From positions 11,350,010 through 11,414,009 of the forward strand of contig NC_092690.1 of the NCBI RefSeq assembly GCF_964275005.1: DNA of 64,000 bases, read 5' to 3'. Shown one piece after another: positions 4,601 through 28,092 of this stretch (the first letter of the stretch is position 1; each line of letters begins with the position of its first letter). The notes below the pieces were generated by a model. That model was not told where the DNA came from. It made no database searches and saw only the letters and a list, made by a program, of their open reading frames with translations. This stretch comes from Diadema setosum. Lineage: Eukaryota; Echinodermata; Echinoidea; Diadematoida; Diadematidae. The translations under genes and the position numbers were made by a program.

Positions 4601-7600
4601 ACAAGCGTTGGTTCCTGGAGGGCACACTCAAGTAGGGCAGACTGTAAATGTCAGAACATAGGGGGCAGTATCACAACAAATTACATGAGATATGACAAGG
4701 TGGTGGTGGTGGTGGTGGTGGCATAAAGCTTCCGTATCCAAAATATCCTCCAGGAAAACAACAAGACCAGTGAAAGGGGGAAAGGGCTCATATAAAAGTT
4801 TGACACATCATAATCACTAGACTTTGAGGAGCTTATCAATAATAGTGCCCTGTTCATAGGCATATTGCAACTAAACGCTTGATTTTATGACCATGATATT
4901 GTATGAGTGACCCCATACTCCTCCTACTTTGTACATGAACTGTCAAATACTCAACTTTTTGGTTAAATTTCTTTATGAGCACATTGATATTTTAGCCAAA
5001 AAATTATTTTCTATAACATCATCCATTAAAAAAAAAAAAAAAAAATGCATGAAGTCAACTTTTCTCTACATATCCCTGTAATTTTTGCTTCACTGGAATT
5101 GAATAGATCACTACTGATTTAATGCTTTCTTGTGCTACAGAACCCACTTGAAGGCAATTAGTACATTGTATGACGGCAGAGGAACACACAGTAAACAAGG
5201 TATATTACAACATGCACATGTCCGGAGAATATCTGTTGACTTTTCGGCAGAAATCAACAAAATATCAAAAGGAAAGAAATATTTGAAACCTTCTCACTGC
5301 ATCAACTACAGTGATTTGTCAACTTATGCAAGATCTACTGCATGTTGTTAATTTGACCTAGACTGACTTGTTTCTATTCCTTTACAGAAACATATTTTCT
5401 TGTTCCTTTTTTTTTTTAGCTGTTATTTGTAACTTACAAGATGTGTCAGTTTCTGGCTTTCTTCATGGATCATCTGGGTATGAGCCGTGGCGAGAAAGGC
5501 TTGTAACTCTGTGAGGGAAAGACATTTTAAAGATATTTACTGAAACAATCCTCAGTCACATGACACATACATGTATTACAAATATTGCCACTAGAAGTAA
5601 TATCTGGGTTGATGTTAATGTTAATGTACATTTGATAATGTTTAAATGTTGTGGTTGATGTTGTTGATGCAGTTATTGAGGTCCATGATAATATTGAAGT
5701 CAGTTTTGATTATCAGACTGATGCTCACAAGCATCAGTCATTAGGGAGGCGACATGACACGAAAGAATGACAAAATTTTGACAACAACCAGTGAATAGAC
5801 AATCAGCAAATCACTTACACATACGGCTGTACAAAGTTAAACATTCTCAGTGAAATGAGCTGATGAACATGTAGTACAGAAAAGAAGTTATCTATTGTGG
5901 AAATGGACATCTAGATGTATTTAGCTCTTTGGTCCACATTCTCTACATACAATGTGTAAGTAGGTAACAATATAATGTGACCATGCCCTTTAATCCCTGC
6001 TGTGCTTTGTCGATCGGCAAGCAAGCTGGAGTGCTTTCTTGGCCAATATTGGCAATAAATAGAGATTATCTAATCCCCTTAATCCCCATTGTGTCACCCT
6101 GGTCTTCCTGCTGAACTGGAGCACATTGCTACACCTGGATGGGCTTGTTAACTAGGTGAATTTCTAGGTCATGTTTGGATAAATTACTGAATGCTTTGGC
6201 AAGTTCAGATCAGTGCCTAGCTCCAGGAACATAAAGGTTAAACATAATATTTTTGTAGTGTTGACACAAACTTTGTTGATAGATACAGGTGGTTGTCACA
6301 GATAATCATGAATTTACCACTCACCAAGTTCCACACATTGCTGAGAGAAAGAAACACAATAACTGGGAATGAGCCTAGACAATTCATGTGAGGCTTTATA
6401 CATATATTCATATGCAGAATTATAAATTTGTTTCAAACCAGAGGCAAAAAAAAAAAAAAATCTTTGAAGTATGATAGGCCCTTTCTAATTGTAAGCCTTC
6501 TCAATCATCAATACCTGGTTATCAGAAAGTGCCCAGCAGAAGATCATTAGATGGTAAATGGCATTAAGAAATAAGATCTGCTGTTCAGGCAGTGGTTTTA
6601 AATGTGTTTGTTTTCAGTTTAATAACTGACATTTATTTTCTGTCAAATAATGTGCTTTGCTCCTTGTGTTTCTCTGAACAGAATTCATTAAGTATCTTTT
6701 AAAAAAGTGATATTGAATAATACTGCACTTACTTGGATCATCTTCAATAACTTCGTGCGCAAAGTTCTTTTCTGTGAGGAAAAATAGTGGAAAAGAATAC
6801 TATGAATGATTCTTGATTCACTCTATTGTCATCATCAATGGCTGATACTAAAATCATTACATTTACAATAGAATATCTAGTAATTTACAAATACAGGGTG
6901 TATGGATGGTTTTACCTTACAATTGTTTTGAAAGTGGTTTGAATAACATCAGTGATACAATCACATAATTACAAATAGATGTCTAAACTCCATTTCTATA
7001 GGCCTAGATGTTTTATCTGTTAGTTTGAGGGTAAACATATTGGTTTGAAACTTTGAATAAAATTGATAATCATACGATATGGACTGGATCATTTTGTGTT
7101 AGTTGCAACAATACTTCTTCAATTCAGGAAGCTTCTTCTCTTATTGGCACATATGACATGAAGTTTTGGTTAATTGTGAGTAGATCTAGATAGACTACTT
7201 GGTGTAGTATTTATAGACCTACTACTTAGTACTAGTACTGTCGCTCTATCAGTTCACCCTCTGTTCTGTATTGCTCTGGATCATTATGAATTGAATAGGG
7301 TCTAGTTCTAACTGTTGATCTAACTCACTGGTTAGACTGAAATCAATGAAAAACTCTGCTCTTTTCTGAATAGATAGTACGATACTACACCGAGTATCAC
7401 TCAGGGCCACTGGCACTGCACTGTCTGTGATGCCTGGAATGTGTGGCTAATGACACTAATCACAATGAACATGCACCGCACAACAAGCACTTTTAAATAT
7501 CCCTACAGTATAGTGAAGTTAAAATGAATACTAGAGAAGCTATATGTCAGAATTGACAATTTGTCACACAAACACTTCATTGATATGCGCAATTATGCTT

Positions 7601-7875
7601 TTGTTGATTCAGTGGATGCCACGAGCAACAATACACCAATAGTATTGTACGGGACTGCATACGTACCTTGCACAAACGGGCCTGCAACTGGCAGCCTTTG
7701 CCTCATATCTCCTGATACAAGCCTCGACTCGATTGGCGGGTGTAAGGTCAGCGATTGCCAAAATAATTTTGCACATGCTTTGTCTTCATCACTTGAGCCA
7801 CTGAACTCTGTCAACTCAGGAATTCTTTCTTCGCCGGATAAATGGTTCGCACAGCTGCCGAAATTTTCAGAAAGA
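1614..7875 (-). CDS. HOATZ: HOATZ, cilia- and flagella-associated protein (codon 5 to stop; exon 1 split by a transposon)
   Basis: HOATZ (human C11orf88) is a small protein of motile cilia and sperm flagella, reported to act with the enolase ENO4. Minus-strand coding exons: exon 1 remainder 7667-7875, then 6733-6771, 5438-5508, 4159-4218, 2571-2617 and 1614-1716, ending in TGA. All have AG/GT borders and the phases (1, 1, 0, 0, 2) agree. Uninterrupted, the protein would be 179 residues, close to the human protein. The family core is clear: SGSSDED, then AKLFW, PPIES, and QRLPVAGP near the end of exon 1. A charged helical middle follows ([20 protein letters not shown]) and an acidic tail. I recognise the human pattern of GSS, FW, PPSES and QRLPVA. 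The first four codons lie 18.9 kb away because a MULE transposon sits in exon 1. The transposon end supplies an in-frame ATG at 7902-7904. Confidence 0.87.
2390..2760. repeat. A-rich simple tracts in HOATZ introns
   Basis: Several A runs and a (CAACAA)/(CAAA) tract around 2490-2520 flank the small exon at 2571-2617. Nothing else is recognisable in this intron sequence. Confidence 0.6.
3652..3673. repeat. Poly-C run in a HOATZ intron
   Basis: A run of about 20 C residues in the 1.5-kb intron between the exons at 2571-2617 and 4159-4218. Its length is probably unreliable in the assembly. Confidence 0.8.
3775..3948. mobile_element. Small inverted-repeat element (MITE) with AGCTGTTATTTT ends
   Basis: The left end AGCTGTTATTTTCGCG is matched by its inverse CGCAAAAATAACAGCT on the right, with a GCGAAAA-rich interior. 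It is non-coding and lies in a HOATZ intron. Superfamily not assigned. Confidence 0.5.
3970..4133. mobile_element. Degraded hAT-like MITE
   Basis: The right end reads GGATCCATCCCTG and the left end CAGTGAGAGATCCAGG, imperfect inverses of the CAGGGATGGATCC type. The middle contains a G run and its near-inverse GCGCCCCCC. The element ends about 25 bp from the HOATZ exon at 4159-4218. Confidence 0.4.
4702..4721. repeat. (GGT)n microsatellite
   Basis: Six to seven GGT units in a HOATZ intron. Confidence 0.85.
7866..7875. repeat. Left target-site duplication of the giant MULE
   Basis: TTCAGAAAGA lies immediately left of the terminal inverted repeat and again immediately right of the other end at 26761-26770. 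A perfect 10-bp duplication fits Mutator-like elements, which usually duplicate 8-11 bp. On the minus strand it is HOATZ coding sequence. Confidence 0.95.
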
Positions 7876-8430
7876 CTGCCCGTTAGCGATCGACGGAGTG
7901 CCATCCTCTCATTGGTCCGTTAAGGACGTGCGGAAGCACGAAAACAGTGCGATCCCGTACGTAGAATCCCCGGCGAATTACCAATAATTGCAACCGTACA
8001 ATTTTAAAGGATTCAAAACAGAATTCTAAGCAAATCAAGCCTGGTTTTGGATCAGATACCAAGTATAAATATATCAATACAGCACTTAAAGTAGTGGTCC
8101 GAATGATATTATACCACAAGTTCACTGCCTCTAGCTCACGTTACTGTTGGATCGGCATACGGCAAGTACGTGTACTGCATAAAGCACAAGTACGCGTACG
8201 TACGTGCGAGCGGATCTACTCATTAGACTTTACACAACAGTCGTTTCATTAGTGTACTGAAATGGAGAGTTTCGATATGCTCCCAGTCTCTCACTCTCGG
8301 AGCAGACAGAGACATCTACCATTAATTGCAACCACAATTAGATCTTCATGTCAGATGAACTGTATGAATAGAATAAAACAAACAAACTTCCAAGTAAGGC
8401 AAATAGATTTTGAGAGATAATGTCAGAATA
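7876..8430. repeat. Left terminal inverted repeat, unique outer part
   Basis: About 555 bp matched in inverted orientation by 26206-26760, with only scattered differences seen by eye. It includes TACGTACG-rich short palindromes around 8170-8215. On the minus strand its outermost 29 bases contain ATG and read in frame into HOATZ. Confidence 0.93.
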
Positions 8431-10222
8431 ATGGCAACATGCCGGTCAGTCCTAATGAATATATCATATATGGCAACATGCCGGTCACTCCTAATGAATA
8501 TCATATGGCAACATGCCGGTCAGTCCTACTGACTATATCATGTATGGCAACATGCCGGTCACTCCTACTGAATATATCATGTATGGCAACATGCTGGTCA
8601 GTTCTACTGAATATATTATCATGTATGGCAACATGCCGGTCAGTCCTACTGAATATATCATATGGCAACATGCCGGTCAGTCCTACTGAATATATCATGT
8701 ATGGCAACATGCCGGTCAGTTCTATATGGTAACATGCCGGTCAGTCCTATACTGAATATATCATTGATGGCAACATGCCGGTCACTCCTACTGAATATCA
8801 TATGGCAACATGCCGGTCACTCCTACTGACTATATCATGTATGGCAACATGCCGGTCAGTCCTACTGAATATATCATATACAGTGTATGGCAACATGCCG
8901 GTCACTCCTAATGAATATCATATGGCAACATGCCGGTCAGTCCTACTGACTATATCATGTATGGCAACATGCCGGTCACTCCTACTGAATATATCATGTA
9001 TGGCAACATGCTGGTCAGTTCTACTGAATATATTATCATATGGCAACATGCCGGTCAGTCCTACTGAATATCATATGGCAACATGCCGGTCACTCCTACT
9101 GACTATATCATGTATGGCAACATGCCGGTCACTCCTACTGAATATCATATGGCAACATGCCGGTCACTCCTACTGACTATATCATGTATGGCAACATGCC
9201 GGTCACTCCTACTAATATCATATGGCAACATGCCGGTCAGTCCTACTGAATATATCATGTATGGCAACATGCTGGTCAGTTCTACTGAATATATTATCAT
9301 GTATGGCAACATGCCGGTCAGTCCTACTGAATATATCATATGGCAACATGCCAGTCAGTCCTACTGAATATATCATATATGGCAACATGCCGGTCAGTTC
9401 TATATGGTAACATGCCGGTCAGTCCTATACTGAATATATCATATGGCACCATGCCGGCACTCCTACTAATATCATATGGCAACATGCCGGTCACTCCTAC
9501 TGAATATCATATGGCAACATGCCGGTCACTCCTACTGAATATCATATGGCAACATGCCGGTCACTGCTACTGAATATATCATATGGCACCATGCTGGCAC
9601 TCCTACTAATATCATATGGCAACATGCCGGTCACTCCTACTGAATATCATATGGCAACATGTCGGTCAGTCCTACTGAATATATCATATGGCAACATGCC
9701 GGTCACTCCTACTGGTCAGTTCTACTGAATATATTATCATGTATGGCAACATGCCGGTCAGTCCTACTGAATATATCATATGGCAACATGCCGGTCAGTC
9801 CTACTGAATATATCATATATGGCAACATGCCGGTCAGTCCTACTGAATATATCATATGGCAACATGCCGGTCACTCCTACTGAATATATCATATGGCAAC
9901 ATGCCGGTCACTCCTACTGAATATATCATATACAGTGTATGGCAACATGCCGGTCACTCCTAATGAATATCATATGGCAACATGCCGGTCACTCCTACTG
10001 AATATATTATCATGTATGGCAACATGCCGGTCAGTCCTACTGAATATATCATATGGCAACATGCCGGTCAGTCCTACTGAATATATCATATGGCAACATG
10101 CCGGTCACTCCTACTGAATATATCATATGGCAACATGCCGGTCAGTTCTACTGAATATCATATGGCAACATGCCAGTCAGTCCTACTAAATATATCATAT
10201 GGCAACATGCTGGTCACTAGCT
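8431..10222 (+). repeat. Left-arm minisatellite, 30-37 bp units
   Basis: Roughly fifty units built on ATGGCAACATGCCGG followed by TCAGTCCTACTGAATATATC or the shorter TCACTCCTACTGAATATC. Unit lengths vary with a TGTA or ATA insert. The same array occurs inverted at 23847-26190. Frames of 60-133 codons here are periodic products of the repeat, not genes. One detached unit lies at 10360-10388. Confidence 0.95.
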
Positions 10223-10251
10223 CCTATTGCATATCACATCACATTTTATGT

Positions 10252-10252
<1 letters not shown>

Positions 10253-10286
<34 letters not shown>
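10253..10286. repeat. (AT)n microsatellite
   Basis: About 15 TA units just inside the left minisatellite. Confidence 0.9.
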
Positions 10287-10288
<2 letters not shown>

Positions 10289-10330
10289 AAACAATTAGTA
10301 GAAGAAGAACCCCCGTCAAAAAATAAATCA

Positions 10331-10419
10331 TAGATCTTGAAGATCTTAAAAACTATATCATGTATGGCAACATGCCGGTCAGTCCTACTTACTTCTAGAT
10401 CTTGAAGATCTTAAAAACG
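10331..10419. repeat. Direct repeat AGATCTTGAAGATCTTAAAA bracketing one minisatellite unit
   Basis: The same sequence of about 22 bases occurs near 10331 and 10397, with a single unit of the left-arm minisatellite between. The core AGATCTTGAAGATCT is itself palindromic. This may be the internal boundary of the inverted-repeat arm. Confidence 0.7.
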
Positions 10420-10747
10420 GAGCATAGCTCTCAAATACTGAAAGGCAAGGCCACACTCTTCATCAGTGCCCATGGTGTGACAAAAGATCCTAATCAAACC
10501 CGTTTCTGAAACAGACATGAAAACACGTCTGATCATGGGCAGACGGATTTTGAAACTCACCTTTCAAAGAAGTCACCGTGCTAAACAGATGGAGGTAGCG
10601 CGCAGTGTCCATAGTGACGCATCTAATGACGCGTAGTCATGACTGCAAGATGACATGGCAAATCTCCGGCTCCAAAACAGTGAATCTGATAAGGGCCTCA
10701 TCAGAAATGCAATAAAAAGATTGGTCTGCTATACATGTGTATACATG

Positions 10748-10751
<4 letters not shown>

Positions 10752-10786
<35 letters not shown>
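10752..10786. repeat. (TA)n microsatellite followed by CA-rich tract
   Basis: About 16 TA units, then an imperfect ACACAT tract to 10853. Confidence 0.85.
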
Positions 10787-10791
<5 letters not shown>

Positions 10792-11035
10792 GTATAATCA
10801 TACACATACTTATAAATACACATACAATATTGTATGCACACACACACATACATAATGGTGTGATGTAGCAGGATTCGCAGATTCATTCAGAAACTGACAG
10901 GGACCGCGACGAGAACGCTCCTGCTATGGCCCCCAAAAACTCACTGCATTTTAACAATTTGCAACAGCATTGCAACTGTCAAATCTCCTTTCCTATGTGA
11001 GGCTGATGATATCGATACACCTGGCCTCATATCAG

Positions 11036-12395
11036 CGGAAAGAAAAAGAGTTTTCTTGCTACGTACCAGTGGAAAGAAATTGGCTTTTCTTGCCACATAT
11101 CATTGGAAAGAAAGGTTTTCTTACCACATACCAGTGGAAAGAAAGAAGGTTTTCTTACCACATACCAGTGGAAAGAAAGAAGGTTTTCTTACCACATACC
11201 AGCGGAAAGAAAGAGGGTTTTCTTACCACATACCAGTGGAAAGAAAGAAGGTTTTCTTACCACATACCAGTGGAAAGAAAGAAGGTTTTCTTACCACATA
11301 CCAGCGGAAAGAAAGAAGGTTTTCTTACCACATACCAGTGGAAAGAAAGAGGGTTTTCTTACCACATACCAGTGGAAAGAAAGAAGGTTTTCTTACCACA
11401 TACCAGTGGAAAGAAAGAAGGTTTTCTTACCACATACCAGCGGAAAGAAAGAGGGTTTTCTTACCACATACCAGTGGAAAGAAAGAAGGTTTTCTTACCA
11501 CATACCAGTGGAAAGAAAGAAGGTTTTCTTACCACATACCAGCGGAAAGAAAGAAGGTTTTCTTACCACATACCAGTGGAAAGAAAGAGGGTTTTCTTAC
11601 CACATACCAGTGGAAAGAAAGAAGGTTTTCTTACCACATACCAGTGGAAAGAAAGAAGGTTTTCTTACCACATACCAGCGGAAAGAAAGAGGGTTTTCTT
11701 ACCACATACCAGTGGAAAGAAAGAAGGTTTTCTTACCACATACCAGTGGAAAGAAAGAAGGTTTTCTTACCACATACCAGCGGAAAGAAAGAAGGTTTTC
11801 TTACCACATACCAGCGGAAAGAAAGAAGGTTTTCTTACCACATACCAGTGGAAAGAAAGAGGGTTTTCTTACCACATACCAGTGGAAAGAAAGAAGGTTT
11901 TCTTACCACATACCAGTGGAAAGAAAGAAGGTTTTCTTACCACATACCAGCGGAAAGAAAGAGGGTTTTCTTACCACATACCAGTGGAAAGAAAGAAGGT
12001 TTTCTTACCACATACCAGTGGAAAGAAAGAAGGTTTTCTTACCACATACCAGCGGAAAGAAAGAGGGTTTTCTTACCACATACCAGTGGAAAGAAAGAAG
12101 GTTTTCTTACCACATACCAGTGGAAAGAAAGAAGGTTTTCTTACCACATACCAGCGGAAAGAAAGAGGGTTTTCTTGCCACATATCAGTGGAAAGAAAGA
12201 AGGTTTTCTTACCACATACCAGTGGAAAGAAAGAAGGTTTTCTTACCACATACCAGCGGAAAGAAAGAGGGTTTTCTTGCCACATATCAGTGGAAAGAAA
12301 GAGGGGTTTCTTGCCACGTACCAGTGGAAAGAAAGAATTTTTTCTTGCCACATATCAGTAGAAAGAAAAAGAGTTTTCTTGCCGTATGTCAGCAG
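11036..12395 (+). repeat. 34-bp minisatellite, about 40 units
   Basis: Unit: AGTGGAAAGAAAGAAGG then TTTTCTTACCACATACC, with recurring variants AGCGG and GAGGG and degenerate units at both ends. The spacing between units in the core is 34 bp. Because 34 leaves remainder 1 on division by 3, each forward frame cycles through all three phases and encodes the same 34-residue repeat with no stop, giving frames of 435-463 codons. I see no start context, splice or domain to support a protein. A variant periodicity of AGTGG and AGCGG units suggests higher-order repeats. Confidence 0.95.
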
Positions 12396-12469
12396 GGCAA
12401 GGATAAATAATGAATAAAAATGAATAATTAGCTGCATATCACAGTTGAAGGTTGGGGTTAACTTGCTCT

Positions 12470-13725
12470 TCCAGTCCCAAAAAGGGGAATAGGCCAAATG
12501 TTATTACCACACCTGGCCTTGAAGGGGAGGGGAGGACTGGTTAAGACTTACAGTTCCCGCACCAACCTGGTCTCGGAAATGGCTGAATAATCAAGAAAGT
12601 AAGAAAACAAACAAAAGTTAGTGATGACAAAAGAATAATATCAAGAAACAATAAAAGTAAGAGCAGTATTTAAAAAACTGCCTCTTACCCGGTTGGGGAA
12701 CAACCAGCTCTACTCAGTCCCAAAATAGGGAAGAGGCTGCCAGCAATCACAACTCCTTGCCTCAAGAATAGGGGAGGGAGGACTTTTCAAGACTTACGGT
12801 GTCCCACACCAACCTATAAGTGTCAACATCGGTGAATAAAGGTCAAGTTCAGTAAAAGGCAGTGCAACAATGAGCTTTACAAACATGCGATTTTTTTAAC
12901 GTTGTAATTAAGTATCAAATAATTGATTGAAGAATTTTGTATGCCACAAGCACAATATTAACAAAAAAGCATGTGTTTTGTCAACATGCATAATATCAAG
13001 TCAATGAATATATAATTTAACTTGGCTGAAACTACATGTATATCATACTCAAATAGAAAGGTAGAAGCCAAGAATCAAAGTGTAACACCTTTGTGATATA
13101 AAATTTTGGAACAAGGGCCAAACAAAATATCAGACACAAAGAGTTTATATATTGCTTAAGGTAGCCACAAGCCCATAAGCTACTTATAAGAAAACACAAA
13201 AAGTATGCAAAGCAGCATGGTTTCATGTAAATTCATATAGCTTTATGTAGCCACAAGCCTACAAGCTACTCATTCTGAGTGGCTCAGAAAATTGATTAAA
13301 ATAGGTCACATAGGTCAAAATATTAAGGGAAGCATGGCTTCATGTCATTGGGTATTTTTTGCACCTCCTATAGCTTAATGTAGCCGCAAGCCCACAAGCT
13401 ACTCATTCGAGATATGAAATGTGACTACTAAAAAGCATGGAAATACAGCATTAAAATGAAATAAAGTCACACAAAATGTGCTGATTACAAAATCAAATAA
13501 GCCACATGCTTGCATTTTGTAAAGCCATCAATGTGCACGCAAATGTTCATCAACTGTCCAAATTGGCTTTGCTACAGCATAAGGTGGGGTCGTCCTGGGG
13601 TACTCCTTGCTCCATCAAGTCAAAATGGGGAAGAGGCTGCTGTCTATCGCATCACCTTGCCTCGAAATATGGGAGGGTAGAAAGACTGATGGAGGCTTAC
13701 AGTTTCCACCCTACCACCAAGCTGC
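12470..13725. repeat. Dispersed diverged modules inside the MULE
   Basis: Two modules recur between the 34-bp satellite and the transposase. A module of about 100 bp (AGGGGAATAGGC or GGGGAAGAGGCTG, then CACCTTGCCT-like, GGGAGG, GACTTACAG) appears near 12475, 12713 and 13608. A second one (GTAGCCACAAGCC then AAGCTACT) appears near 13160, 13243 and 13380. They are too diverged to be recent copies. Confidence 0.7.
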
Positions 13726-13873
13726 TAAACTACTCTAGTCTACTCTACAACTATTCTACAACTATTCTACAAATTCAACTCTAAAACAAAATACAAAAAG
13801 CAGCTTAAGGCTACTAAGTGGCCTAAATCGTGTCGATGTGAAAAAAGCAAAACCCCAATCAAAATATCATTAA

Positions 13874-16800
13874 CTATGCCACACAGAAGTTGCAGGTCCA
13901 TCCATTTCGAGGATTCCTCTTCAAATTACAACATTTCCAATGAAACCACTTTGTGCACTTCTCGCACTCTATCATATTAAGTGTAGTCCTAGTTGTCGTG
14001 CATAGATGACACTTCCATTCCCTGCGTTTGTTTGTTACAACATTAAGAATAAGTAGCCATGCATCATCATCAACATATTGCCTCAATTTCCTCAAATCAT
14101 CTTCAGATATATCTACTACTTTGTCAGACACATTTCCAGGCAGTACCTCAACTTCAGTTTCCTTCACCTTGTCTTGGTTAGTCCTTACTCTTTCAACCAC
14201 CTCACAAGTGACAAATAGCTCTAACTGTTTTGCACTTTTCCTTGACATTGTATCCCTATCAGCGCTATTAATGTCTGCTGGCCTAGAAATACTAGTATAA
14301 TCATGGTCGTTTCCCTGGCTTACTACAACATCTGTTCCCTCTAACCTGCATGCAATACTCTCTCGCTCCTCTCTAGTCGGCTTCTCCAGCTGGACCCGTT
14401 TACTATTTCTAGGTTTCTTAGTGGACTTGAATGGTGCCCGCTGAGGAGTGACCCGCTGAGGTACATTTGACTCTCTAATACCAGTATCCTGAAATGGCCT
14501 GTCGACAACTGGTCTCGAAACCCTAAGCAATTGCAACGCAGCATCCAAGTGCTTATACACAGAAGCTAAGTCTGCGTCCTCTGGTACAGCCCCTAACTGT
14601 TCCCCAATCTCATGCAGCTTACACTCTACTTTGTCCTTACCAACCTTCGTCCGTGCCTGCCTAGTCTGCGCAGTCAAATCCCTGAGGAGGTCCTCCTCCG
14701 CTGGAGGCAATGTAACATAAGACTCATGGTCATTATTGCCTACATGGTCTAGTCTACCCTGACTCCTGACTACAAGATGAACATGTTTGCACAGTGTACC
14801 CCTAACTACCCCATCTAGGCAAGTACATGAAAACTCATGAACACAAACCCTACATTGCTTGCAATCCAGGTGGCATGATCCCTGACATGACTTCGGCTTC
14901 CTATCAACAGTGTACACACGCTTTCCATCCGTTGATCTAACTTCCCACCTATTGACCTCAACCTCTTTCACATCTTCACTACGTAGTTTTAGACTTAGCC
15001 TATGTCGACTGTCAATATCATTGACTCGTCGACTCTTCTTCCCCTTCTGAAGTTTCACTAGTCTATCAAAAGTCTTATCCTTGACAAATTCCATCAGGAG
15101 ACTCACACACTTGTCCACTCTCCTATTGGCGAACCCCTTCATGTAGATGTACTTCAGCGAGTGGTGGAATGCCTCCACGTACATGTTCGTATTGATACCA
15201 GATCCCTTCCTGTAGCAGACTGCCCACTGTGACTTCCTATCCACATAGCTCCTAAAATACTCTCCAAACCTACGCGTACCTTCATCCCCTAGCAGGTCAG
15301 TAGTGACCTGTCCTAACATTGCTTCAAATTTCACAACATCAGGTTCATCTAGCAGGCAGCGCAGTGCTTTGTAGACAGAAGACTGCAACTCGACATTCCC
15401 ACTGATGTGAGTACGTAGCGCCCCTCTCCATGCCCTATCCACATGCCACATGCACAGTAGTTTACTAGGCCTATGTGCAAAAACACTAATCCACGCATTG
15501 AAGTACTGTTCCGCATCATCAGTCATGACCCACTTTGGTGCCACCTCACCCACTATGTCCCTTATCCTACGCAAGAAAGCAGTCAGAACAACACGATCCT
15601 CCCTATTAGATATCAGCCATGCGACAGGAAAGCCCTCACCAAACTCATCAACAACTAGAACGGTAACAAGAGAGAAATCGTACCCATTTGTACCATGAGT
15701 TGCGTCCATACAGACTATGTTGTTCCCACAAGCCTTCAACATATCCCTCTGTATCGGTGTCATTAGGCCTAATACAAAATCATCCTGTGACAGATCATCT
15801 AGGCTATCTGGGCAAGGTGCCCCCTGCTCTTTGTATAACAGGACAGGATTGCTATCTCTATCCATACCAACCTCCTCAACCCACATGCCAACACTAGTTG
15901 CATCATCTCTGTGTCTACTGATTCCATGTATTCCAAGCGAGCGCTCTATGTTCCTAATATCCTGTCTAGTCACTAGGTGACGCCTCTCTAGAGTGTCAGA
16001 AAGAGAACTCCTAATGTCATCAAGTATTCTATCAATGCTAATTCCCTGTGCAAGTTTCTGTGCAATAGACACACGCTCACTATCGCTCAGCTTGAGATGA
16101 GCAAGATCAATATCATGCCCATAATGCGTTGCATTTAGAACTACACTCACAGAGCCGTTAACCTTACAGGTTTTTGCCCAAATCCCTGCAGTACAATGCG
16201 CATCCATTTTGCAGGACCCCTGGGCTTTCAGCGCACGCTTACCTTCCCCCTTAGAGTTAAAAAATCCACTGCGATTGCAATAATACGATTGCATACTGAC
16301 CTCATCATTGCCTGTGGCACCTTTAGATGCAATGAATGAACATTTTTCCTGCCCTTCATATTGCCGCTTCCACTGGATGAACGCTAGGTGAGATAAAGAA
16401 ACAACAGTAATAAATGTAATACATATGCATAATTTCACATAATGTACTTACACTGGCTAAACGCAATGGCTTTACCTTTTCTTACATTGTATATTACTGC
16501 ATAATTATGGTATGTTCCACATAGTATTTCAATAGAAAACCACATTGGAAAAGAAATCAGTGTGTTGACTTTTTGCACTCACTAACAATGCAAGTACTTG
16601 AAACGTGAACTTGCTTCCAACTGCCAGCCCAGGTGACATCTATTCAACAAACGAAATGGAGAAACGAAATAGTAGTTCAGTTAATCCTATCAAACATACA
16701 ATGTAGACAAGAACACAACAAAAAATCAAATCAATCTTCATTTGATAGATAACATGGTAACTGAGTAACATAACTGAGTAACATAACAGATGAATGGATG

Positions 16801-19800
16801 GATGGATAAAGAACAAATTGATGTACAAGCTACTTGCCAAATCTTACTTAAATCAATGATAGTCGCATTGAATTGTAGTACAATATACATCAGTGAAAAG
16901 CTTGAAATTTCCTCGAAATCTTCGCTCGTTACATGTCCAGGGTAACAAAAATCTACAAAAGTTACATCGGTTTGAAACCAGAACGTTTTCTCAAAGCATG
17001 TGACGACCAGAATGTCAGGATTTTTGTAGGGCTTCTGTGGAAATGAAGTGTTCAAAACACAATTGAGAATGAAAAGATATGACTATAGTTGTTGCAGTTG
17101 ATGCATGTGCATCATGACTAGAGTGCATTGTATTCATTGACACGTCCTGGGAACACCCACTGCATCCACTGCATCCGCCACTGGGTGTGAAATGCTCAAG
17201 GGCCATTGTCCAAAAAAGTGTGCACTCATCTAGTTGTACAAATGACTAAAAACTGTAAATCAAACATTTCAATCAACATTTAGCAATTACGAATCAGAAA
17301 CTTCAGAAACAAATAAAATAAATTCAGAAACAAATGTACAACAATCAATGGGTGATTTTTTTTTTTTTTTTAATAGTAATAGTTTTCTCCAGAAACGTTA
17401 CCAAACTCTTAGTAATAAGTCATTTTGAACGTGTCAAATCCAAATGTCAGATACGTTACCACAGGTAGCATCTCTGAAAATCGTTTGATAGTTGTTTTTC
17501 ACTTTCAACTGAGACAATTCTTGGAGTCAGCCTTCATCTAATCTGTAAAAAAAATAATATCGTGATAAGATGAAGGCTAAATAAAAGTCAAGCTGAAGAT
17601 TTTTCAATAGAAAACCACATTGGAAAAGAAATCAGTGTGTTGACTTTTTGCACTCACTAACAATGCAAGTACTTGAAACGTGAACTTGCTTCCAACTGCC
17701 AGCCCAGGTGACATCTATTCAACAAACGAAATGGAGAAACGAAATAGTAGTTCAGTTAATCCTATCAAACATACAATGTAGACAAGAACACAACAAAAAA
17801 TCAAATCAATCTTCATTTGATAGATAACATGGTAACTGAGTAACATAACTGAGTAACATAACAGATGAATGGATGGATGGATAAAGAACAAATTGATGTA
17901 CAAGCTACTTGCCAAATCTTACTTAAATCAATGATAGTCGCATTGAATTGTAGTACAATATACATCAGTGAAAAGCTTGAAATTTCCTCGAAATCTTCGC
18001 TCGTTACATGTCCAGGGTAACAAAAATCTACAAAAGTTACATCGGTTTGAAACCAGAACGTTTTCTCAAAGCATGGCTGCCTTGCTACGTCAGAATAATG
18101 TGGAACACAGGAGGTATACACCATGGCACATAAAGAGTTAAAGGATTACTTAATCAGCATTACATCACTTATGGCTTTGCTCAGTATGGCTCAAAAAAAA
18201 TTAAAACATATCTATTTACCTTCTCTGGATTCAAACGTGAGCTGAATCTCCTCCATGGATATCTGATGAGCCACGGTGAGGTGCTCGCGGAGACCTTTAC
18301 GACTGTGGGTAGTGAACTGACACTCACTCTCCAGGCACCTCACTTGGCCACCCGCTGATGCAGACTGTGGATGTTTCTGCCGACGATGCTTGAAGAGACT
18401 GGCGCGGTGACTGTAGACTTGTGGACACTCTGGACACTGGAACTCTCCACTGGTCCTGCTTTATTTAAAGAAAAAATAGAAAGAAAAAAGAAATGGGTAA
18501 AATCTACGGCAATACAGGCAACTTTGGGCTACATGTCTATGGCAATAATGCTGGAGAATGCAGCAATATTAGTAGAACAGATCAGTGAAAGTTTGAGGAA
18601 AATCGGACAATCCGTTAAAAGTTATGAATATTTTAAGTATCTGCGCAGTCACTGCTGGAAGAGAAGACTACAACAGTGTATGATGTAGCCTGCATACAGC
18701 GATATAATGAAAACAAAAAGAGAATTGCACAAAATTGAATTTTGAATAAAGTGATATAAATTTTCATTTTTTTTTTTTTAATTTGTTTAGACCATTTCAG
18801 TTCTTCATATATCGAAACACCTAAACATTTGGTGAACTGAACTATTCTAATCAGACTACCATTCAATGAAAGAATGAAATTTTCCCTTTAATAATCCACC
18901 CCATTATTTTGTTTAGTGCAACAGTTATCTTAAAACCAGATTGATTAGGGTGCAGTAAATCATTTGCATTCAAGAATTCACTTAGTTGTTGATGTTTGGC
19001 CCTTTCTATAATTTTATTCATGGTTGATAAGATTGAGATTTAACGAAGAAATATCTCCTGCTTTATATAGTTGAAGTAGTCATTTCATCCACCGTGACTG
19101 AGCAGAAACTTCAAAAATTCATAGCTTTTGAACGAACTGTTCGACTTTCCTCAAAATCACACCGACGTCTTCTACTAATATTGCTGCATTCACTCGACCC
19201 ACATGTCTATGAAGGTGAACTTGTCCTTAGGAAGCGGTCCTCTAGCTTCATTCTGTACACTCATCAAAGAAATACTTGATATGAACATACACAAGGAGAG
19301 ATGTTTCAATGTAAAAAGAGAGAATTGCAGGACTACACATTTCAAAGATATTCCTAATTTTCCTGAATATCCATGTGCTCCAACTTTTGTCGGTGTACCA
19401 TAGCCATGAGGTTAATTCAGGCTTAAACTTAGTTTCAGCAAAAAGAACGATTTTAAATGAAATGAAAATGTACGCAAGAAACATTACATGTAGGACAATG
19501 AAAGAATACCAAATTGAAAACATGTAGCTGCATGTGGTTGTCAAACATTATTTGACCAGCAGTACTTTTAGACACTTGGTACATTGTAAGTCTGATAGCT
19601 GTGTATTGCTTCATCCCTATATATGAGACAACATCGAAACCTTCCTCCAAGAAAGAGAACCCTCCTCATAACTATGAAGGGCTTTGTCTACTGTATGGGA
19701 CACCTAACTGAGCTAAGTTACAGACACTAAGTACTGACAGCTGTATATTGCCTCATCAACAACATTGAAACCTTGCTCTAAGAAAGAGAGCCCTCCTCAA

Positions 19801-22660
19801 CTCCAAACAAAAGATTCCACAGACAACAATTTTTATCCACTTAATCCCCTCCATGTACAGAGCTGATTACATTCAGGGTGGCCACTCAAGCCAAAACAAA
19901 CCATTCTGTGTGCATGAAACCTTTCCTGGCCACTATACAAAGAAGCTGACATATTGTAAAGAGGTATTTAATTCTCCTATGGTGCTCACATTATCCTATC
20001 AAAACCACAGACTCCACCTGTGACTAAAATACACACCATCACTTACAGTGTCATGACTTTGTTGTCAAGATGCAGTACTGCAGTCCATGTTTTTAGCGGA
20101 AGCCAGTGACGACCAGAATGTCAGGATTTTTGTAGGGCTTCTGTGGAAATGAAGTGTTCAAAACACAATTGAGAATGAAAAGATATGACTATAGTTGTTG
20201 CAGTTGATGCATGTGCATCATGACTAGAGTGCATTGTATTCATTGACACGTCCTGGGAACACCCACTGCATCCACTGCATCCGCCACTGGGTGTGAAATG
20301 CTCAAGGGCCATTGTCCAAAAAAGTGTGCACTCATCTAGTTGTACAAATGACTAAAAACTGTAAATCAAACATTTCAATCAACATTTAGCAATTACGAAT
20401 CAGAAACTTCAGAAACAAATAAAATAAATTCAGAAACAAATGTACAACAATCAATGGGTGATTTTTTTTTTTTTTTTAATAGTAATAGTTTTCTCCAGAA
20501 ACGTTACCAAACTCTTAGTAATAAGTCATTTTGAACGTGTCAAATCCAAATGTCAGATACGTTACCACAGGTAGCATCTCTGAAAATCGTTTGATAGTTG
20601 TTTTTCACTTTCAACTGAGACAATTCTTGGAGTCAGCCTTCATCTAATCTGTAAAAAAAATAATATCGTGATAAGATGAAGGCTAAATAAAAGTCAAGCT
20701 GAAGAACATGCGTATATATACACATATTTTGGCTTAAAACATTTCTGTACTGATTGTATGAACGGTAGACAATTTACTTGTGATAATTATGTAAGATGCA
20801 TAATAATAGTGAACAAAAGTAGTGGTTTCAATTGCTGGGAAATTGTGAGGGTTATATCACACTTCAGGTTGTTTCCAATATCCTGGACATCCAAATAAAG
20901 CGTAATTGCTAGGCCCTATATATTTGACAGGTCCAACCTCTCAGATTTAAACTAAACTAAAATGATGATTTGTAATTGACAAAATATCAATTTCAGCTGT
21001 ATGAACATGCTGGCACAGTTGTTGGGATAGTAGTACCCATGGCATTGTTTTTGGTTTTTTTCTGATCCATAATGCAGAAAGCCAAAAAAACACATGTGAA
21101 TCCCAAATATGAATGTACATTACTGTCTACAGCACAAATTACAGTCTAACTTTTGACACAAGTATTTGCAAAGATATTATCAAGTCCCTGCATGCCATGC
21201 CACCAAGTGATTGCACTGTGTAAGCCTCGTTGGCAGTTATATTTTGTTCATTGTGAGTGGATTCGTGGGGGGGGGGGGGGAGATTTCACTATGAGAGATG
21301 AAATTCCACAATAAAATCAAATTGCAATCCAGAATTGGGGATAATGTATGGTAAATGTTGCACTTGTTTAAGTACTTCTAAAGTCATGTTGAGCGTTCCA
21401 TGATAGTAATCTCATAATTACAGCCAAAGTCAAGCCAGAAGTTGTATCCACAGTTCATATCAAGGTGACGATGGTAGGCCTACAACATAGGATCCACACT
21501 AGTTTTGTTTGGTTTGTGCCATACATATCACATAAAACAACAATATGGGCACAAGTATGTGGCATTTCTAGTATGATCCTAGTTGTTCTGCAGCGGAAAA
21601 ATACCAAGTCTCACTAATCACGCTCAACCTCTGATGGAATTAGGCTGTGATCGAACCTACTACAAATTAATAGTATACATTGATGCAATGAAAGTCACAA
21701 AACTCAAGTTACCTAAGCTAAGTTGAATGTCACGGCACAAAAAGCTCTGATTACAAATTGTAATTAAAGGCAGACATGAAATATTTAAATACGTTGAGAT
21801 AGTTTACGTACGTATGGGACACTCTGTCCTGCATTAGTTTAGTGTGTAGAGAACCATGTAGTAGTTCTTTTTGCTTAGGGAAAATAAACCAAAATATATT
21901 ATGAGGATTTGGGGAATGCAGCAATATTATTAGGACTAATCTGTGAAAGTTTGAAAAAAAATGAGAAGACTATGAGAAATAATGTACACAAGTATGTGCA
22001 CTTTGATGGCTTATAATTGACATCCACGTTGCCTCAATATTTGCTGATGTGTTGGATGCCAAAATAATAAGTTTTGCTATTTTCCACACTAAACCATTTT
22101 TAATCATAACAATTTAATAGGCCAAACCACGAGCCAACCGTTCACAGTTTGTATGATAGCAATATGTCACATTGTCATTGATCATATTATACTGATTCAA
22201 ATCCTTTAGGGCCTACATTTTGTTAATAATAATATCCTTTGGCTTTACACTCCATTTTAGAACTGTAAATATTTGAAGCACTAATATTAATAAGTGACCA
22301 AGCATGGGTTTTTCTCAGCCCGGCCAGACACTGTTAATACGCTGACTTACAGCGAATGGGCTGTGTATAGTTAGGTTTTTTATATCATTTGCAAACGGTA
22401 AATAATGTCTTTAAGCTCAAGAAAAGTTAAGCCTACTCACGATGCCTAGCCTAGGCTTTCACAGGTGAGTATGACCGATGACTAGCAATATGACTAAGTG
22501 AGGCGAGTTTCTTGGGAATGCCAGTGAGGAAGATAGATGATGGACAGACTTCACACTAACACAGACATCGTCATAGATAGACAGTAGTTAACACTCACCT
22601 TGTTCTTCCGCTGCGATCATCGCTGTTGGTGACGACGTCGATTTCCTCCGGTTGCTGCAT
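13874..22660 (-). CDS. MULE transposase, three exons, 935 aa (C2H2 x2, DDE, SWIM, PHD-like)
   Basis: It would catalyse cut-and-paste transposition of this element. Minus-strand coding exons are 22599-22660, 18220-18455 and 13874-16383, with GT-AG introns and phases 2 and 1; together 2,808 bp with no stop until TGA. Residues 28-49 form a C2H2 finger (C28, C31, H44, H49) and 61-84 a second (C61, C66, H79, H84). The MULE core has D326 in CMDATHG, D388/D389 in WVMTDDAE and E503 in MYVEAFHH, the likely DDE triad. A SWIM finger follows (C619, C621, C631, H633). The last 50 residues have paired cysteines and FHWKCC, as in a PHD finger. MULE plus SWIM is standard for the superfamily; N-terminal C2H2 fingers and a C-terminal PHD probably serve DNA and chromatin recognition. 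The start follows from the in-phase first exon, MQQPEEIDVV. It has the same orientation as HOATZ. Confidence 0.92.
16528..17599. repeat. Segment A-B, first copy, in transposase intron 2
   Basis: 16528-17000 (A) recurs at 17603-18075 and 17000-17599 (B) recurs at 20106-20705, all in the same orientation and apparently nearly identical; the short reading frames inside them translate identically. The order is A-B-A-X-B, where X (18076-20105) carries transposase exon 2. This looks like a tandem duplication of A-X-B in which the first copy lost X. Confidence 0.92.
17603..18075. repeat. Second copy of segment A
   Basis: Direct repeat of 16528-17000 at an offset of 1,075 bp. Its right edge lies 145 bp from transposase exon 2. 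Confidence 0.92.
18490..19245. mobile_element. TTAA-family MITE-like sequence in transposase intron 1
   Basis: 18530-18720 and, inverted, 19085-19240 share sequence with the MITE at 55704-56019 (for example GCAGCAATATTAGTAGAACA and ACATGTCTATGAAGGTGA). They look like the two ends of one degraded copy with other sequence between them. Confidence 0.55.
20106..20705. repeat. Second copy of segment B
   Basis: Direct repeat of 17000-17599 at an offset of 3,106 bp, in transposase intron 1. Confidence 0.92.
20706..22598. other. Rest of transposase intron 1
   Basis: AT-rich sequence with a G run at 21267-21280. A single ACGTATGGGACACT at about 21811 matches the subterminal motif of the 43-kb element. 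No further gene or repeat recognised. Confidence 0.6.
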
Positions 22661-23350
22661 GGTGATGTCGCGATGATCCAAAATGTATTCCGAGCTACTC
22701 AACTAGTCTATCAAATGGGTAGTACAGTGTCTAGTGAATCTACTTGTATACTGTAGTATGCGGGGACGATGTAGTTACGCGGTGCCTCAGCGGTTGTACG
22801 GTAAACAAACTAGCAAGATCTCGGTCCACGTAAACTGCGGTGATGATCCTCTCCTGGTCCTCTTCCGGGTCCTCTCTTGTTTTGGTCCTGGTCCTCCACT
22901 GGTCCTCTTCTGGTGGTGATCCTGGGTCCTCTGGTCCTCTTCTGGTGCTCCTGGCCTTCTGGTTGAAAACGGTTCCGATATGTGACTAGCCAATAATTTT
23001 GTCTTCGTATTTATCCTGGGGATCACTAAGATGGACGGGGCGCGAGCAGTCGAGTTTGCCGCCCCGCCCCCCGGTATTCAGGGCACAACAACTAATCCGA
23101 CAGTCTGATTGGTTGAATCTCCGCCGCGCCTACGGCCCAGTCACTGTGAATGGTCAATCAGTCATTACGTAAAATCTTTTGTGCCGAGTTCACGTCACGT
23201 ATCCGTAAACATCCTTTTGTGCTTTCTTCATCATTTACTAGTAATTAAAGAAAGTTGAGTATTCGTAAACACCCTTTGTCCTGTCTTCATCATCTAATTA
23301 AACAAAAGTCACGTATCAGTAAACGTCCTTTGTGGTGTGTGTTCGTCTTC
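22661..23350 (-). promoter_or_regulatory. Promoter-like 5' region of the MULE transposase
   Basis: Upstream of the transposase ATG on the minus strand. It contains imperfect GGTCCTCTTCTGG tandem repeats (22840-22960), a GC-rich block with CCCCGCCCCCC (about 23062), an inverted CCAAT box (GATTGGTTG, about 23107), CACGTCACG resembling a CRE half-site (about 23191), and about three diverged repeats of CGTATCCGTAAACATCC with CTTCATCAT between 23195 and 23340. No TATA box stands out. Promoter function is inferred. Confidence 0.5.
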
Positions 23351-23846
23351 TCTGAATAGTAATACACCATGCACTTGTGTCATATCGCGACAGCTGTCTT
23401 CTCTTGCCATATCAGTTCCACTGCCACCAGGCAGATTGGTGATACCCATAGAGATATGTAAATAACACAGATACATGTATAATACTATTCACACATAAAC
23501 ATGTAGAAAAAACCGCGTGGCTATCTCACTGGCATTCTGATCTCAAAGGGATCGTACATTTTCGGTTCACCAGATGAGGCTTTATAGGTTGTAGGTTTTC
23601 TTTTTTTTTTTTTAATATACATATAAACACTGACTATGGAGATGAAGAGAAACAACATAAAGTACAGAAGAGCATATAATTCTAAGAGGAATACAATTAA
23701 TGGTCAATAATGAGAAAACTTTTTTTTTATGGCTTAGATCATGTATATATCCAATCTAAAGCAATCCTAATAAAAAGTGGGACCAAACCTTCTACAAGGA
23801 TCTTTATACACATGATTTTGTCTTTGGATATCAAAGCCATCGAAAT

Positions 23847-26190
23847 GGTATTCAGTAGGACTAATGACCGGCATATGTTGCCATATCATATTCGGTAGGA
23901 GTGAGTGGCATGTTGCCGCATGATATATTCAGTAGGACTGACCGGCATTTTGCCATATAGAACTGACCGGCATGTTGCCATACATGATATATTCAGTAGG
24001 ACTGACCGACATGTTGCCATATGATATTCAGTAGGAGTGACCGGCATGTTGCCATATGATATTAGTAGGAGTGTCGGCATGGTGCCATATGATATATTCA
24101 GTAGCAGTGACCGGCATGTTGCCATTATGATATTCATTAGGAGTGACCGGCATGTTGCCATATATGATATATTATTCAGTAGAACTGACCGGCATGTTGC
24201 CATATGATATTAGTAGGAGTGCCGGCATGGTGCCATATGATATATTCAGTAGCAGTGACCGGCATGTTGCCATATGATATTCAGTAGGACTGACCGGCAT
24301 TTTGCCATATAGAACTGACCGGCATGTTGCCATAATGATATATTCAGTAGGACTGACCGGCATGTTGCCATACATGATATAGTCAGTAGGAGTGACCGGC
24401 ATGTTGCCATATGATATTCAGTAGGAGTGACCGGCATGTTGCCATATGATATTCAGTAGAAGTGATATAGTCAGTAGGAGTGACCGGAATGTTGCCATAT
24501 GATATTCAGTAGGAGTGAACGGCATGTTGCCATCAATGATATATTCAGTATAGGACTGACCGGCATGTTACCATATAGAACTGACCGGCATGTTGCCATA
24601 TATGATATATTCAGTAGGACTGACCGGCATGTTGCCATATGATATATTCAGTAGGACTGACCGGCATGTTGCCATACATGATAATATATTCAGTAGAACT
24701 GACCAGCATGTTGCCATACATGATATATTCAGTAGGACTGACCGGCATGTTGCCATATGATATTAGTAGGAGTGACCGGCATGTTGCCATACATGATATA
24801 GTCAGTAGGAGTGACCGGCATGTTGCCATATGATATTCAGTAGGAGTGACCGGCATGTTGCCATAATGATATATTCAGTATAGGACTGACCGACATGTTA
24901 CCATATAGAACTGACCGGCATGTTGCCATATATGATATATTCAGTAGGACTGACCGGCATGTTGCCATATGATATATTCAGTAGGACTGACCGGCATGTT
25001 GCCATACATGATATATTCAGTAGAACTGACCAGCATGTTGCCATACATGATATAGTCAGTAGGACTGACCGGCATGTTGCCATATGATATTAGTAGGAGT
25101 GACCGGCATGTTGCCATACATGATATAGTCAGTAGGAGTGACCGGCATGTTGCCATATGATATTCAGTAGGAGTGACCGGCATGTTGCCATACATGATAT
25201 ATTCAGTAGGACTGACCGGCATGTTGCCATATGATATTAGTAGGAGTGACCGGCATGTTGCCATACATGATATAGTCAGTAGGAGTGACCGGCATGTTGC
25301 CATATGATATTCAGTAGGAGTGACCGGCATGTTGCCATAATGATATATTCAGTATAGGACTGACCGACATGTTACCATATAGAACTGACCGGCATGTTGC
25401 CATATATGATATATTCAGTAGGACTGACCGGCATGTTGCCATATGATATATTCAGTAGGACTGACCGGCATGTTGCCATACATGATATATTCAGTAGAAC
25501 TGACCAGCATGTTGCCATACATGATATAGTCAGTAGGACTGACCGGCATGTTGCCATATGATATTAGTAGGAGTGACCGGCATGTTGCCATACATGATAT
25601 AGTCAGTAGGAGTGACCGGCATGTTGCCATATGATATTCAGTAGGAGTGACCGGCATGTTGCCATACATGATATAGTCAGTAGGACTGACCGGCATGTTG
25701 CCATATGATATTCAGTAGGGGTGACCGGCATGTTGCCATAATGATATATTCAGTATAGGACTGACCGGCATGTTACCATATAGAACTGACCGGCATGTTG
25801 CCATATATGATATATTCAGTAGGACTGACCGGCATGTTGCCATACATGATATATTCAGTAGAACTGACCAGCATGTTGCCATACATGATATATTCAGTAG
25901 GAGTGACCGGCATGTTGCCATATAATGATATATTCAGTAGGACTGACTGGCATGTTGCCATATATGATATATTCAGTAGGACTGACCGGCATGTTGCATA
26001 TATGATATATTCAGTAGGACTGACCGGCATGTTTCCATATGATATCAGTCAGACTGACCGGCACGTTGCAATATGATATTCTGAATCAGTAGCGGTGATA
26101 ACTGGTGCATGTTGCCATATTGATATTCAGTAGGACTGACTGGCATGTTGCCATATTATCCAGTAGGCCCTGATGACCGGCATGACTGTT
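23847..26190 (-). repeat. Right-arm minisatellite, inverted copy of the left-arm array
   Basis: About sixty-five 30-37 bp units of the same sequence as 8431-10222, reversed (for example TGACCGGCATGTTGCCATA). Blocks of several units recur inside it: the stretch around 24890-25080 is closely repeated near 25370-25560, so the array has grown by segmental duplication. It is longer than the left array, so the arms have diverged in copy number. Confidence 0.95.
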
Positions 26191-26205
26191 GACCTATAAT
26201 CACAT

Positions 26206-26760
26206 AATTCTTACATTATCTCTCAAAATCTATTTGCCTTACTTGGAAGTTTGTTTGTTTTATTCTATTCATACAGTTCATCTGACATGAAGATCTAATT
26301 GTGGTTGCAATTAATGGTAGATGTCTCTGTCTGCTCCGAGAGTGAGAGACTGGGAGCATATCGAAACTCTCCATTTCAGTACACTAATGAAACGACTGTT
26401 GTGTAAAGTCTAATGAGTAGATCCGCTCGCACGTACGTACGCGTACTTGTGCTTTATGCAGTACACGTACTTGCCGTATGCCGATCCAACAGTAACGTGA
26501 GCTAGAGGCAGTGAACTTGTGGTATAATATCATTCGGACCACTACTTTAAGTGCTGTATTGATATATTTATACTTGGTATCTGATCCAAAACCAGGCTTG
26601 ATTTGCTTAGAATTCTGTTTTGAATCCTTTAAAATTGTACGGTTGCAATTATTGGTAATTCGCCGGGGATTCTACGTACGGGATCGCACTGTTTTCGTGC
26701 TTCCGCACGTCCTTAACGGACCAATGAGAGGATGGCACTCCGTCGATCGCTAACGGACAG
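26206..26760. repeat. Right terminal inverted repeat, unique outer part
   Basis: Inverted match of 7876-8430, ending ATCGCTAACGGACAG directly against the target duplication. Read from the HOATZ ATG on the minus strand it gives an early stop (TAA). Confidence 0.93.
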
Positions 26761-26781
26761 TTCAGAAAGAGTGGACGCCAT
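26761..26781 (-). pseudogene. HOATZ: Detached 5' end of HOATZ exon 1 (start codon side)
   Basis: The minus strand reads ATGGCGTCCAC then the 10-bp target duplication TCTTTCTGAA. Removing the transposon and one copy of the duplication restores MASTLSENFG in frame with the exon remainder at 7667-7865. In the present arrangement the original ATG reads into the transposon's right terminal repeat and ends at TAA after 22 codons, so this start can no longer make HOATZ without an unusual splice. Confidence 0.85.
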
Positions 26782-26880
26782 TTTCGTTCGTTGTCAAGAA
26801 CGCCGACTTCCGTTTCCATCTAAATGTGCCGTTTTCGTCAAGAGAGGGAGGTATTCTGCTTACACTGCTTACAGGGGGCA
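26782..26880 (-). promoter_or_regulatory. Original HOATZ 5' untranslated region and proximal promoter
   Basis: The sequence directly upstream (minus strand) of the detached HOATZ ATG, including GGAAACGGAAGTCGG, which contains an ETS-type CGGAAGT core. It is separated from most of the HOATZ gene by the 18.9-kb transposon, and the transposase gene lies downstream in the same orientation. Confidence 0.45.
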
Positions 26881-27863: not shown

Positions 27864-28092
27864 AGCTCGTTATTCCGAAGGCTCCTCAGTCCGAAGATTT
27901 GTTATTCCGAAAGTTCGTTTTTCCGAATTTCATTTTCGGATTAACAAATCTTCGGAATAACGAACCTTTGGAATAACGCCACAAATGTTCGGATCAACGA
28001 ACCTCTAGGTATAGGGAATTTGTGTGTTTCGGATTAACGAACCTTCGGAATAACGAACCTTCGGAATATCGGACCTTCGGAATAACGAACAG
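27864..28092. mobile_element. Inverted-repeat element built from TTCGGAATAACGAAC units
   Basis: The left part carries CGTTATTCCGAA units and the right part their inverse TTCGGAATAACGAAC, four or so in tandem near 28030-28090. The whole can fold on itself. Non-coding; superfamily not assigned. Confidence 0.6.

Follow-up and report, generated by a model that had tools for sequence, protein, structure and literature searches.

A Mutator-like element in the first coding exon of sea urchin HOATZ, with evidence for insertion at a fixed distance from an ATG motif

The window analysed here is a stretch of 64,000 nucleotides from the sea urchin Diadema setosum (NC_092690.1, C6:11350010-11414009 in our contig numbering), in which a large Mutator-like element (MULE) divides the first coding exon of HOATZ. 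A sequence-only reading of the window had noted that HOATZ is needed for motile cilia and sperm in mouse, which agrees with the account given in PMC7132099, and had expected such an insertion to be strongly selected against. We found that the element is one of five full copies in the genome, at all of which the target duplication starts exactly 12 nt after the A of an ATG, and that its ends carry an ATG which is in frame with the gene. In our judgement this is probably an insertion with fixed-distance targeting by an element which brings a frame-compatible ATG; that judgement covers the presence of the ATG, and its use is weighed separately below.

HOATZ lies on the minus strand, from 7874 down to 1614. 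Alignment to P0001, the HOATZ protein of D. antillarum (179 aa; from a cluster of two members, one of which is named), gave six exons, all with GT-AG borders:

7667..7874, minus strand: remainder of HOATZ exon 1, opening with the left copy of the target duplication (Pfam, P0001 comparison)
6733..6771, minus strand: HOATZ exon 2 (P0001 comparison)
5438..5508, minus strand: HOATZ exon 3 (P0001 comparison)
4159..4218, minus strand: HOATZ exon 4 (P0001 comparison)
2571..2617, minus strand: HOATZ exon 5 (P0001 comparison)
1614..1716, minus strand: HOATZ exon 6 and stop codon (P0001 comparison)
26770..26781, minus strand: native HOATZ start fragment ATGGCGTCCACT (MAST), severed by the element (same start in P0001)

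Exon 1 matched the Pfam family HOATZ-like (PF17664) with 65.7 bits against a cut-off of 25 (E = 4.8e−18). A Pfam scan of positions 1-7600 returned nothing for exons 2-6, which were located by the P0001 comparison; the HOATZ-like domain and the six exons of the sister-species gene are all present in the window. When the element and one duplication are removed, the start fragment joins the exon in frame as MASTLSENFG, just as the sequence-only reading had proposed, and this is exactly the N-terminus of P0001. The joined protein is equal to P0001 at 174 of 179 residues, with residues 1-79 identical and 5 differences beyond them. In its present position, on the far side of the element, the native ATG opens just 22 codons. 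An intact HOATZ elsewhere had been named as a finding which would overturn this picture; we looked for one in the assembly (912,680,840 bases, 102 contigs) with the exon 1 DNA, which had one match, and with P0001, which had three matches, all at the window locus, and found none among the best candidates scored. As these searches rank best candidates only, the absence of further copies of HOATZ, or of EXOSC1 (see below), is not absolute.

The HOATZ protein search returned 17 proteins (P0001-P0017), of which the 12 named are from sea urchins, sea cucumbers, sea stars, a brittle star, crinoids and hemichordates. This occurrence in echinoderms and hemichordates contrasts with the paper naming Hoatz, which describes the gene as conserved in vertebrates only (PMC7132099). 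The window also holds a second cilia gene on the strand of HOATZ, the start of a CFAP45-like gene at 60561-60923 (minus strand; best match PDB 8snb, E = 2.3e−29).

The element and its parts were delimited as follows:

7875..26761, minus strand (strand of the transposase, shared with HOATZ): Mutator-like element of 18,887 bp, first base A and last base T (ends set by comparison of the five copies)
7867..7874, no strand: left 8-bp target duplication TCAGAAAG (five-copy comparison)
26762..26769, no strand: right 8-bp target duplication TCAGAAAG (five-copy comparison)
7875..8420, plus strand: left terminal inverted repeat, beyond which the copies diverge into arrays (inverted alignment, copy comparison)
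26216..26761, minus strand: right terminal inverted repeat (inverted alignment, copy comparison)
8431..10218, plus strand: left subterminal tandem array with a unit of ~37 bp starting ATGGCAACATG (tandem repeat scan)
24310..26156, minus strand: right subterminal tandem array, inverted with respect to the left one (tandem repeat scan)
11028..12380, plus strand: internal tandem array of ~40 copies of a 34-bp unit (tandem repeat scan)
13874..16372, minus strand: transposase exon with MULE domain and PHD finger (Pfam; acceptor by eye)

The borders differ slightly from those first suggested, which were a perfect 10-bp duplication outside inverted ends and a right-hand limit at 26781. The 10-bp match does exist (TTCAGAAAGA at 7866-7875 and 26761-26770, and nowhere else in the window on either strand), but comparison of the five full copies assigns the A at 7875 and the T at 26761 to the element, and we therefore rejected a 10-bp duplication in favour of the 8-bp TCAGAAAG. 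On each side the outermost base of the apparent match comes from the element at one of the copies; at the other it is a flanking base that agrees by chance. Position 26781 is the A of the native ATG and not the end of the element. The inverted ends were confirmed, with 1 difference in the first 548 alignment columns; the inverted alignment extends into the tandem arrays, with 2145 of 2469 positions identical overall. The terminal repeats proper are ~546 bp long, and in each of the five full copies the two repeats differ in 0-2 of 548 columns. The first 2,400 bp of the element contain 46 occurrences of ATGGCA, and its last 2,900 bp contain 55 of TGCCAT. Two near-identical stop-free frames within the element (16738-17082 and 17813-18145, minus strand) come from an internal duplication, and a stretch similar to them is present in the copy on contig C17.

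The transposase frame is 857 aa long from stop to stop and is 66% identical over 97% to a MULE-domain protein of Lytechinus pictus. Its MULE domain (PF10551) scored 42 bits against a cut-off of 27.6 (E = 1.4e−10), with the catalytic triad judged by eye, and its C-terminal PHD finger (PF00628) was barely above threshold at 24.1 bits against 24. A SWIM-like CxC...CxH pattern was seen by eye; Pfam gave no SWIM match, and the ZSWIM1-3 RNaseH-like family scored 27.1 bits against 27.2. The stop-free frame reaches 16447, and an acceptor-like CAG at ~16373-16375 (by eye) suggests a further transposase exon upstream. We did not find that exon; the frame as read probably lacks a first exon. Judged by its DDE-type domain, its long inverted repeats and its 8-bp duplication (the range for the superfamily being 8-11 bp), the element is a MULE, and its position inside coding exon 1 of HOATZ, as first read, is borne out by the two domain matches and by the joined protein. 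There are 16 pieces in the genome which match the transposase (these are pieces and not copies), ranging from 100% identity to broken relics. A distant relative at 30% identity (L008, on C5) lies in a stop-free frame of 1,203 aa.

The left repeat of the window element had 28 matches in the genome. Five full copies account for 10 of them, with two ends each; the others are 3 partial ends, 2 pieces from the interior which reach no end, and 13 ends of a related group, which we call subfamily B. The full copies, named here by contig, are C6 (the window copy, 18,887 bp), C16 (18,080 bp), C18 (10,560 bp), C17 (8,617 bp) and C5 (~6.6 kb by match positions). All five have perfect 8-bp duplications, and every copy begins with A and finishes with T. 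Repeats diverge by up to ~6% between copies, and since the two repeats within a copy show only 0-2 differences nonetheless, we rejected dating of the insertions by their own repeats. Internal stretches compared with the window copy gave 85 mismatches in 11,298 aligned bases for C16 and 21 in 4,575 for C18. This is below the heterozygosity of 2.11% given for another D. setosum in PMC11066563, so that the insertions may be young and polymorphic.

The duplication begins exactly 12 nt after the A of an ATG at all five full copies, and at four of the five this ATG lies within AAAATGG. At HOATZ the motif is:

26778..26784, minus strand: target motif AAAATGG, its ATG starting 12 nt before the duplication (copy comparison, null test)

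The target sites are GAAAATGGCGTCCACT (C6), GAAAATGGCGGCGCCC (C18), TAAAATGGCCGCCGTT (C17), TAAAATGGAGGTCCCG (C5) and GCACATGTAGTTGACC (C16). Among the partial ends, the one on C10 has ATGG at 12 nt, and those on C7 and C3, which have a common flank, have ATGG at 13 nt. As a null we drew 4,000 sets of five random 88-base sites outside these elements, leaving the choice of word, offset and orientation free. None of the 4,000 sets shared a 5-, 6- or 7-mer among four of its five sites, whereas AAAATGG does reach four of five. Subfamily B served as a control: an ATG at 12 nt was found at none of its 21 ends, a count which leaves out L044 (diverged outer end) and L066 (no end reached); L063 and L064 share one flank. 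AAAATGG is present near two of the subfamily B ends, at distances of 21 and 6 nt, and ATGG stands at other distances near four (10 and 24; 31; 49 and −3; 62). The 12-nt rule thus belongs to the subfamily of the window element, and subfamily B was rejected as a second case of it. Fixed-distance targeting is well supported by these comparisons, although the sites are few.

Within subfamily B, the repeat has its own outward ATG 30 nt from the end, with the open frame MATRLALADS (by eye). One subfamily B copy on C10 (L057, L051) carries the 8-bp AGAAAAAA on both flanks and lies 21 nt, a multiple of 3, after the start-like AAAATGGCGGC/AAAATGGCGG; at its empty site the open frame MAAEDVVRKNGTKAF runs across (all by eye).

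Since AAAATGG resembles a start codon in strong context, insertion can take place after codon 4 of a gene; two of the five sites are known start codons. HOATZ (C6) is struck after codon 4, and so is EXOSC1 (CSL4; C18), 12 nt after its ATG. Pfam scans near C18 gave weak matches, and EXOSC1 was spotted by eye and then confirmed: the joined peptide is EXOSC1 in Pfam (E = 6.7e−15), and the empty site starts MAAPM, as does the CSL4-like protein P0138 of D. antillarum, the residues right after this being different. From residue 6 onwards P0138 is matched by exon pieces which span 6 kb on a single strand, and the EXOSC1 exons are intact. All five of its genome matches, which start from residue 18 (exon 1 being too short to report), are at the C18 locus, and the P0138 search found no second EXOSC1 locus in the assembly among the best candidates scored. 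One further site is near a gene start: C17 precedes the ATG of a PIN1-like gene (MADDLPEGWEERYSRSHNG at 15487078) by 383 bp, and the WW and rotamase exons follow downstream. C5 is inside a repeat which looks tRNA-derived by eye, and at C16, where TAG directly follows the ATG, no gene was recognised.

The ends of the element also matter for the frame. Read outwards, each repeat gives GAGAGGATGGCACTCCGTCGATCGCTAACGGGCAGT, with one base near the end variable. The second ATG of this stretch lies 30 nt from the end, and its context has A at −3 and G at +4. This stretch is constant in all 10 repeat ends except at position 5, where the other base would give an alternative ten-residue N-terminus. At HOATZ it reads:

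7875..7904, minus strand: outward ATG of the left repeat and the next nine codons, 30 nt, in frame with HOATZ (frame reading)

From the repeat ATG the HOATZ frame is open to its own stop (185 aa), with ten repeat codons in place of native codons 1-4, and exon 1 of EXOSC1 is likewise in an open frame from the repeat ATG. Both 12 and 30 are multiples of 3, so that the host frame will be open from the repeat ATG at every such start-codon site. Of random 550-base pieces, 29% contained an in-frame ATG ahead of any stop, 18% had one within 36 nt, and 1.6% had one within 36 nt with A or G at −3 and G at +4. The expectation of an isolated and necessarily very harmful event is not supported as it was put: at least two insertions of the same family lie at equal distance after start codons (HOATZ and EXOSC1), and the end of the element supplies an in-frame ATG for an almost complete HOATZ.

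We propose that this young Mutator-like element keeps a fixed distance to an ATG motif when it inserts, with its duplication starting 12 nt after the A. The distance may be set by the transposase, through binding of ATGG in the target as well as in the repeats of the element; repeat positions ~24-65, the part in common with subfamily B, contain ATGG, and ATGGCA recurs roughly a hundred times in the subterminal arrays. A host protein of the YY1/Pho kind acting at the same motif would be an alternative to binding by the transposase, and no paper was found in the literature on YY1 with ATGGCGGC. It should be noted that several points weigh against our proposal. The targeting evidence comes from a single genome and from five to seven independent sites, which is few. 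Shorter words do occur by chance, a 3-mer at five of five sites in 4 of the 4,000 null sets and a 4-mer at four of five in 3 of them. C16 has the ATG without AAAATGG, and the placing of C5 in a repeat and of C17 in a promoter region means that the motif is not equivalent to a start codon. The fit of the in-frame ATG was noticed after the fact and should be weighed accordingly, the more so as the 18% of random pieces with such an ATG within 36 nt applies when no context is required. The in-frame ATG is preceded, 8 nt upstream, by an out-of-frame ATG in poorer context, and the outer 120 bp of the repeat are only weakly more conserved than the remainder, with 2 variable columns out of 120 as compared with 28 out of 428 (p = 0.04).

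What the insertion does to HOATZ divides about evenly between two readings. The leading one, held tentatively, is a start-codon swap, in which native codons 1-4 would be replaced by ten repeat codons and a chimeric HOATZ would be made from RNA starting in the repeat or running through it, outward transcription being predicted; we infer the use of the repeat ATG and the function of the product from sequence alone. That target recognition and repeats fit together in general, such that the element lands four codons into genes at AAAATGG and gives each a new in-frame start, seems to us somewhat unlikely; if true, the element could sit in needed single-copy genes by swapping their first four residues for ten of its own. 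On the other reading, to which we give the same tentative weight, HOATZ and EXOSC1 are both stopped by null alleles at low frequency in a heterozygous animal, and the repeat ATG is never used, which is compatible with fixed-distance targeting. EXOSC1 is a subunit of the exosome and is expected to be needed, which counts for null alleles. Haplotigs were purged from this assembly, which was made by ERGA-BGE from an adult female according to PMC13264686, so that an empty allele would not show in it, and the low internal divergence between copies, being compatible with young and polymorphic insertions, makes null alleles about as likely as the swap. It would nevertheless be unexpected to find two genes struck at the same phase with an open chimeric frame if the frame were irrelevant, an argument limited by the fact that fixed spacing alone yields the same phase.

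Splicing of the element from HOATZ RNA like an intron, as is known for some plant transposons in exons, would give a near-normal message from the native promoter. The terminal signals are poor by eye for this: one end offers GTTAGC nearby, and the other GGGCAG, which lacks a pyrimidine tract. By hand reading their joining hits a stop at once because of the 8-bp duplication, which leaves splicing improbable. Only marginally more credible is targeting of open promoter chromatin alone, with the 12-nt spacing arising by chance. Mu insertions of maize do peak near transcription starts (PMC7337890), and AAAATGG is common (36 in 92 kb, both strands), but the random-site null, the absence of the spacing from subfamily B and the C5 copy, which keeps the spacing inside a repeat, all speak for the fixed distance. 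Misjoining of the element into HOATZ during assembly we regard as very improbable: PMC13264686 lists 644 gaps in the published assembly, but the perfect duplication, the inverted ends that match each other, four further copies with the same ends and the sister-species protein are all concordant.

The remaining features of the window are a 410-aa stop-free frame with a PNMA (gag-like) match (33857-35089, plus strand; E = 1.5e−10), a 339-aa frame in a G+C-rich stretch (37008-38027, plus strand) for which EURL scored 24.3 bits, just below the cut-off of 24.7, and imperfect 16-bp tandem repeats at 27867-28090 with a unit of approximately TTCGGAATAACGAACC.

According to PMC7337890, the factors which recruit Mutator-type transposase to gene starts have not been identified; an element with an exact distance to a short word makes gene-start finding by this type of element testable. 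If the repeat ATG is used, a transposon would have a way to limit the harm of insertion into coding sequence, and new protein N-termini would have a natural source; the sharpest test case would be EXOSC1, the exosome subunit found once in the assembly. In the literature on targeting, MULEs and start codons, taken mostly at abstract level, we found no transposon which supplies an in-frame start at a fixed distance, nor any element that keeps a single exact distance to a word resembling a start codon.

Among known systems, maize Mutator (Mu) and the Pack-MULEs belong to the same superfamily and share a preference for gene starts, but Mu is described as having a distribution around transcription starts (PMC7337890), whereas the D. 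setosum element keeps one exact distance to a short word. Another animal MULE with 8- or 9-bp duplications is Muta1 of Aedes aegypti, which differs in that PMC5225508 reports no apparent target sequence preference. MULEs in an arthropod survey also combine DDE and zinc finger domains and have repeats of up to 1,193 bp, with full lengths given as 1.4-10.0 kb (PMC13359780) against 18.9 kb here. In its features the element also resembles Rehavkus, which according to PMC6446971 has a MULE-like transposase with a PHD finger, a minisatellite beside the terminal repeat and long repeats. For Rehavkus the same source gives duplications of 9 bp, a single minisatellite placed before the 3' repeat, and hosts among arthropods and annelids, while the D. 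setosum element has an 8-bp duplication, arrays at both ends and a sea urchin host. Because of the difference in duplication length, and as the placement is based on features and not on a transposase tree, we describe the element as Rehavkus-like and do not assign it to Rehavkus.

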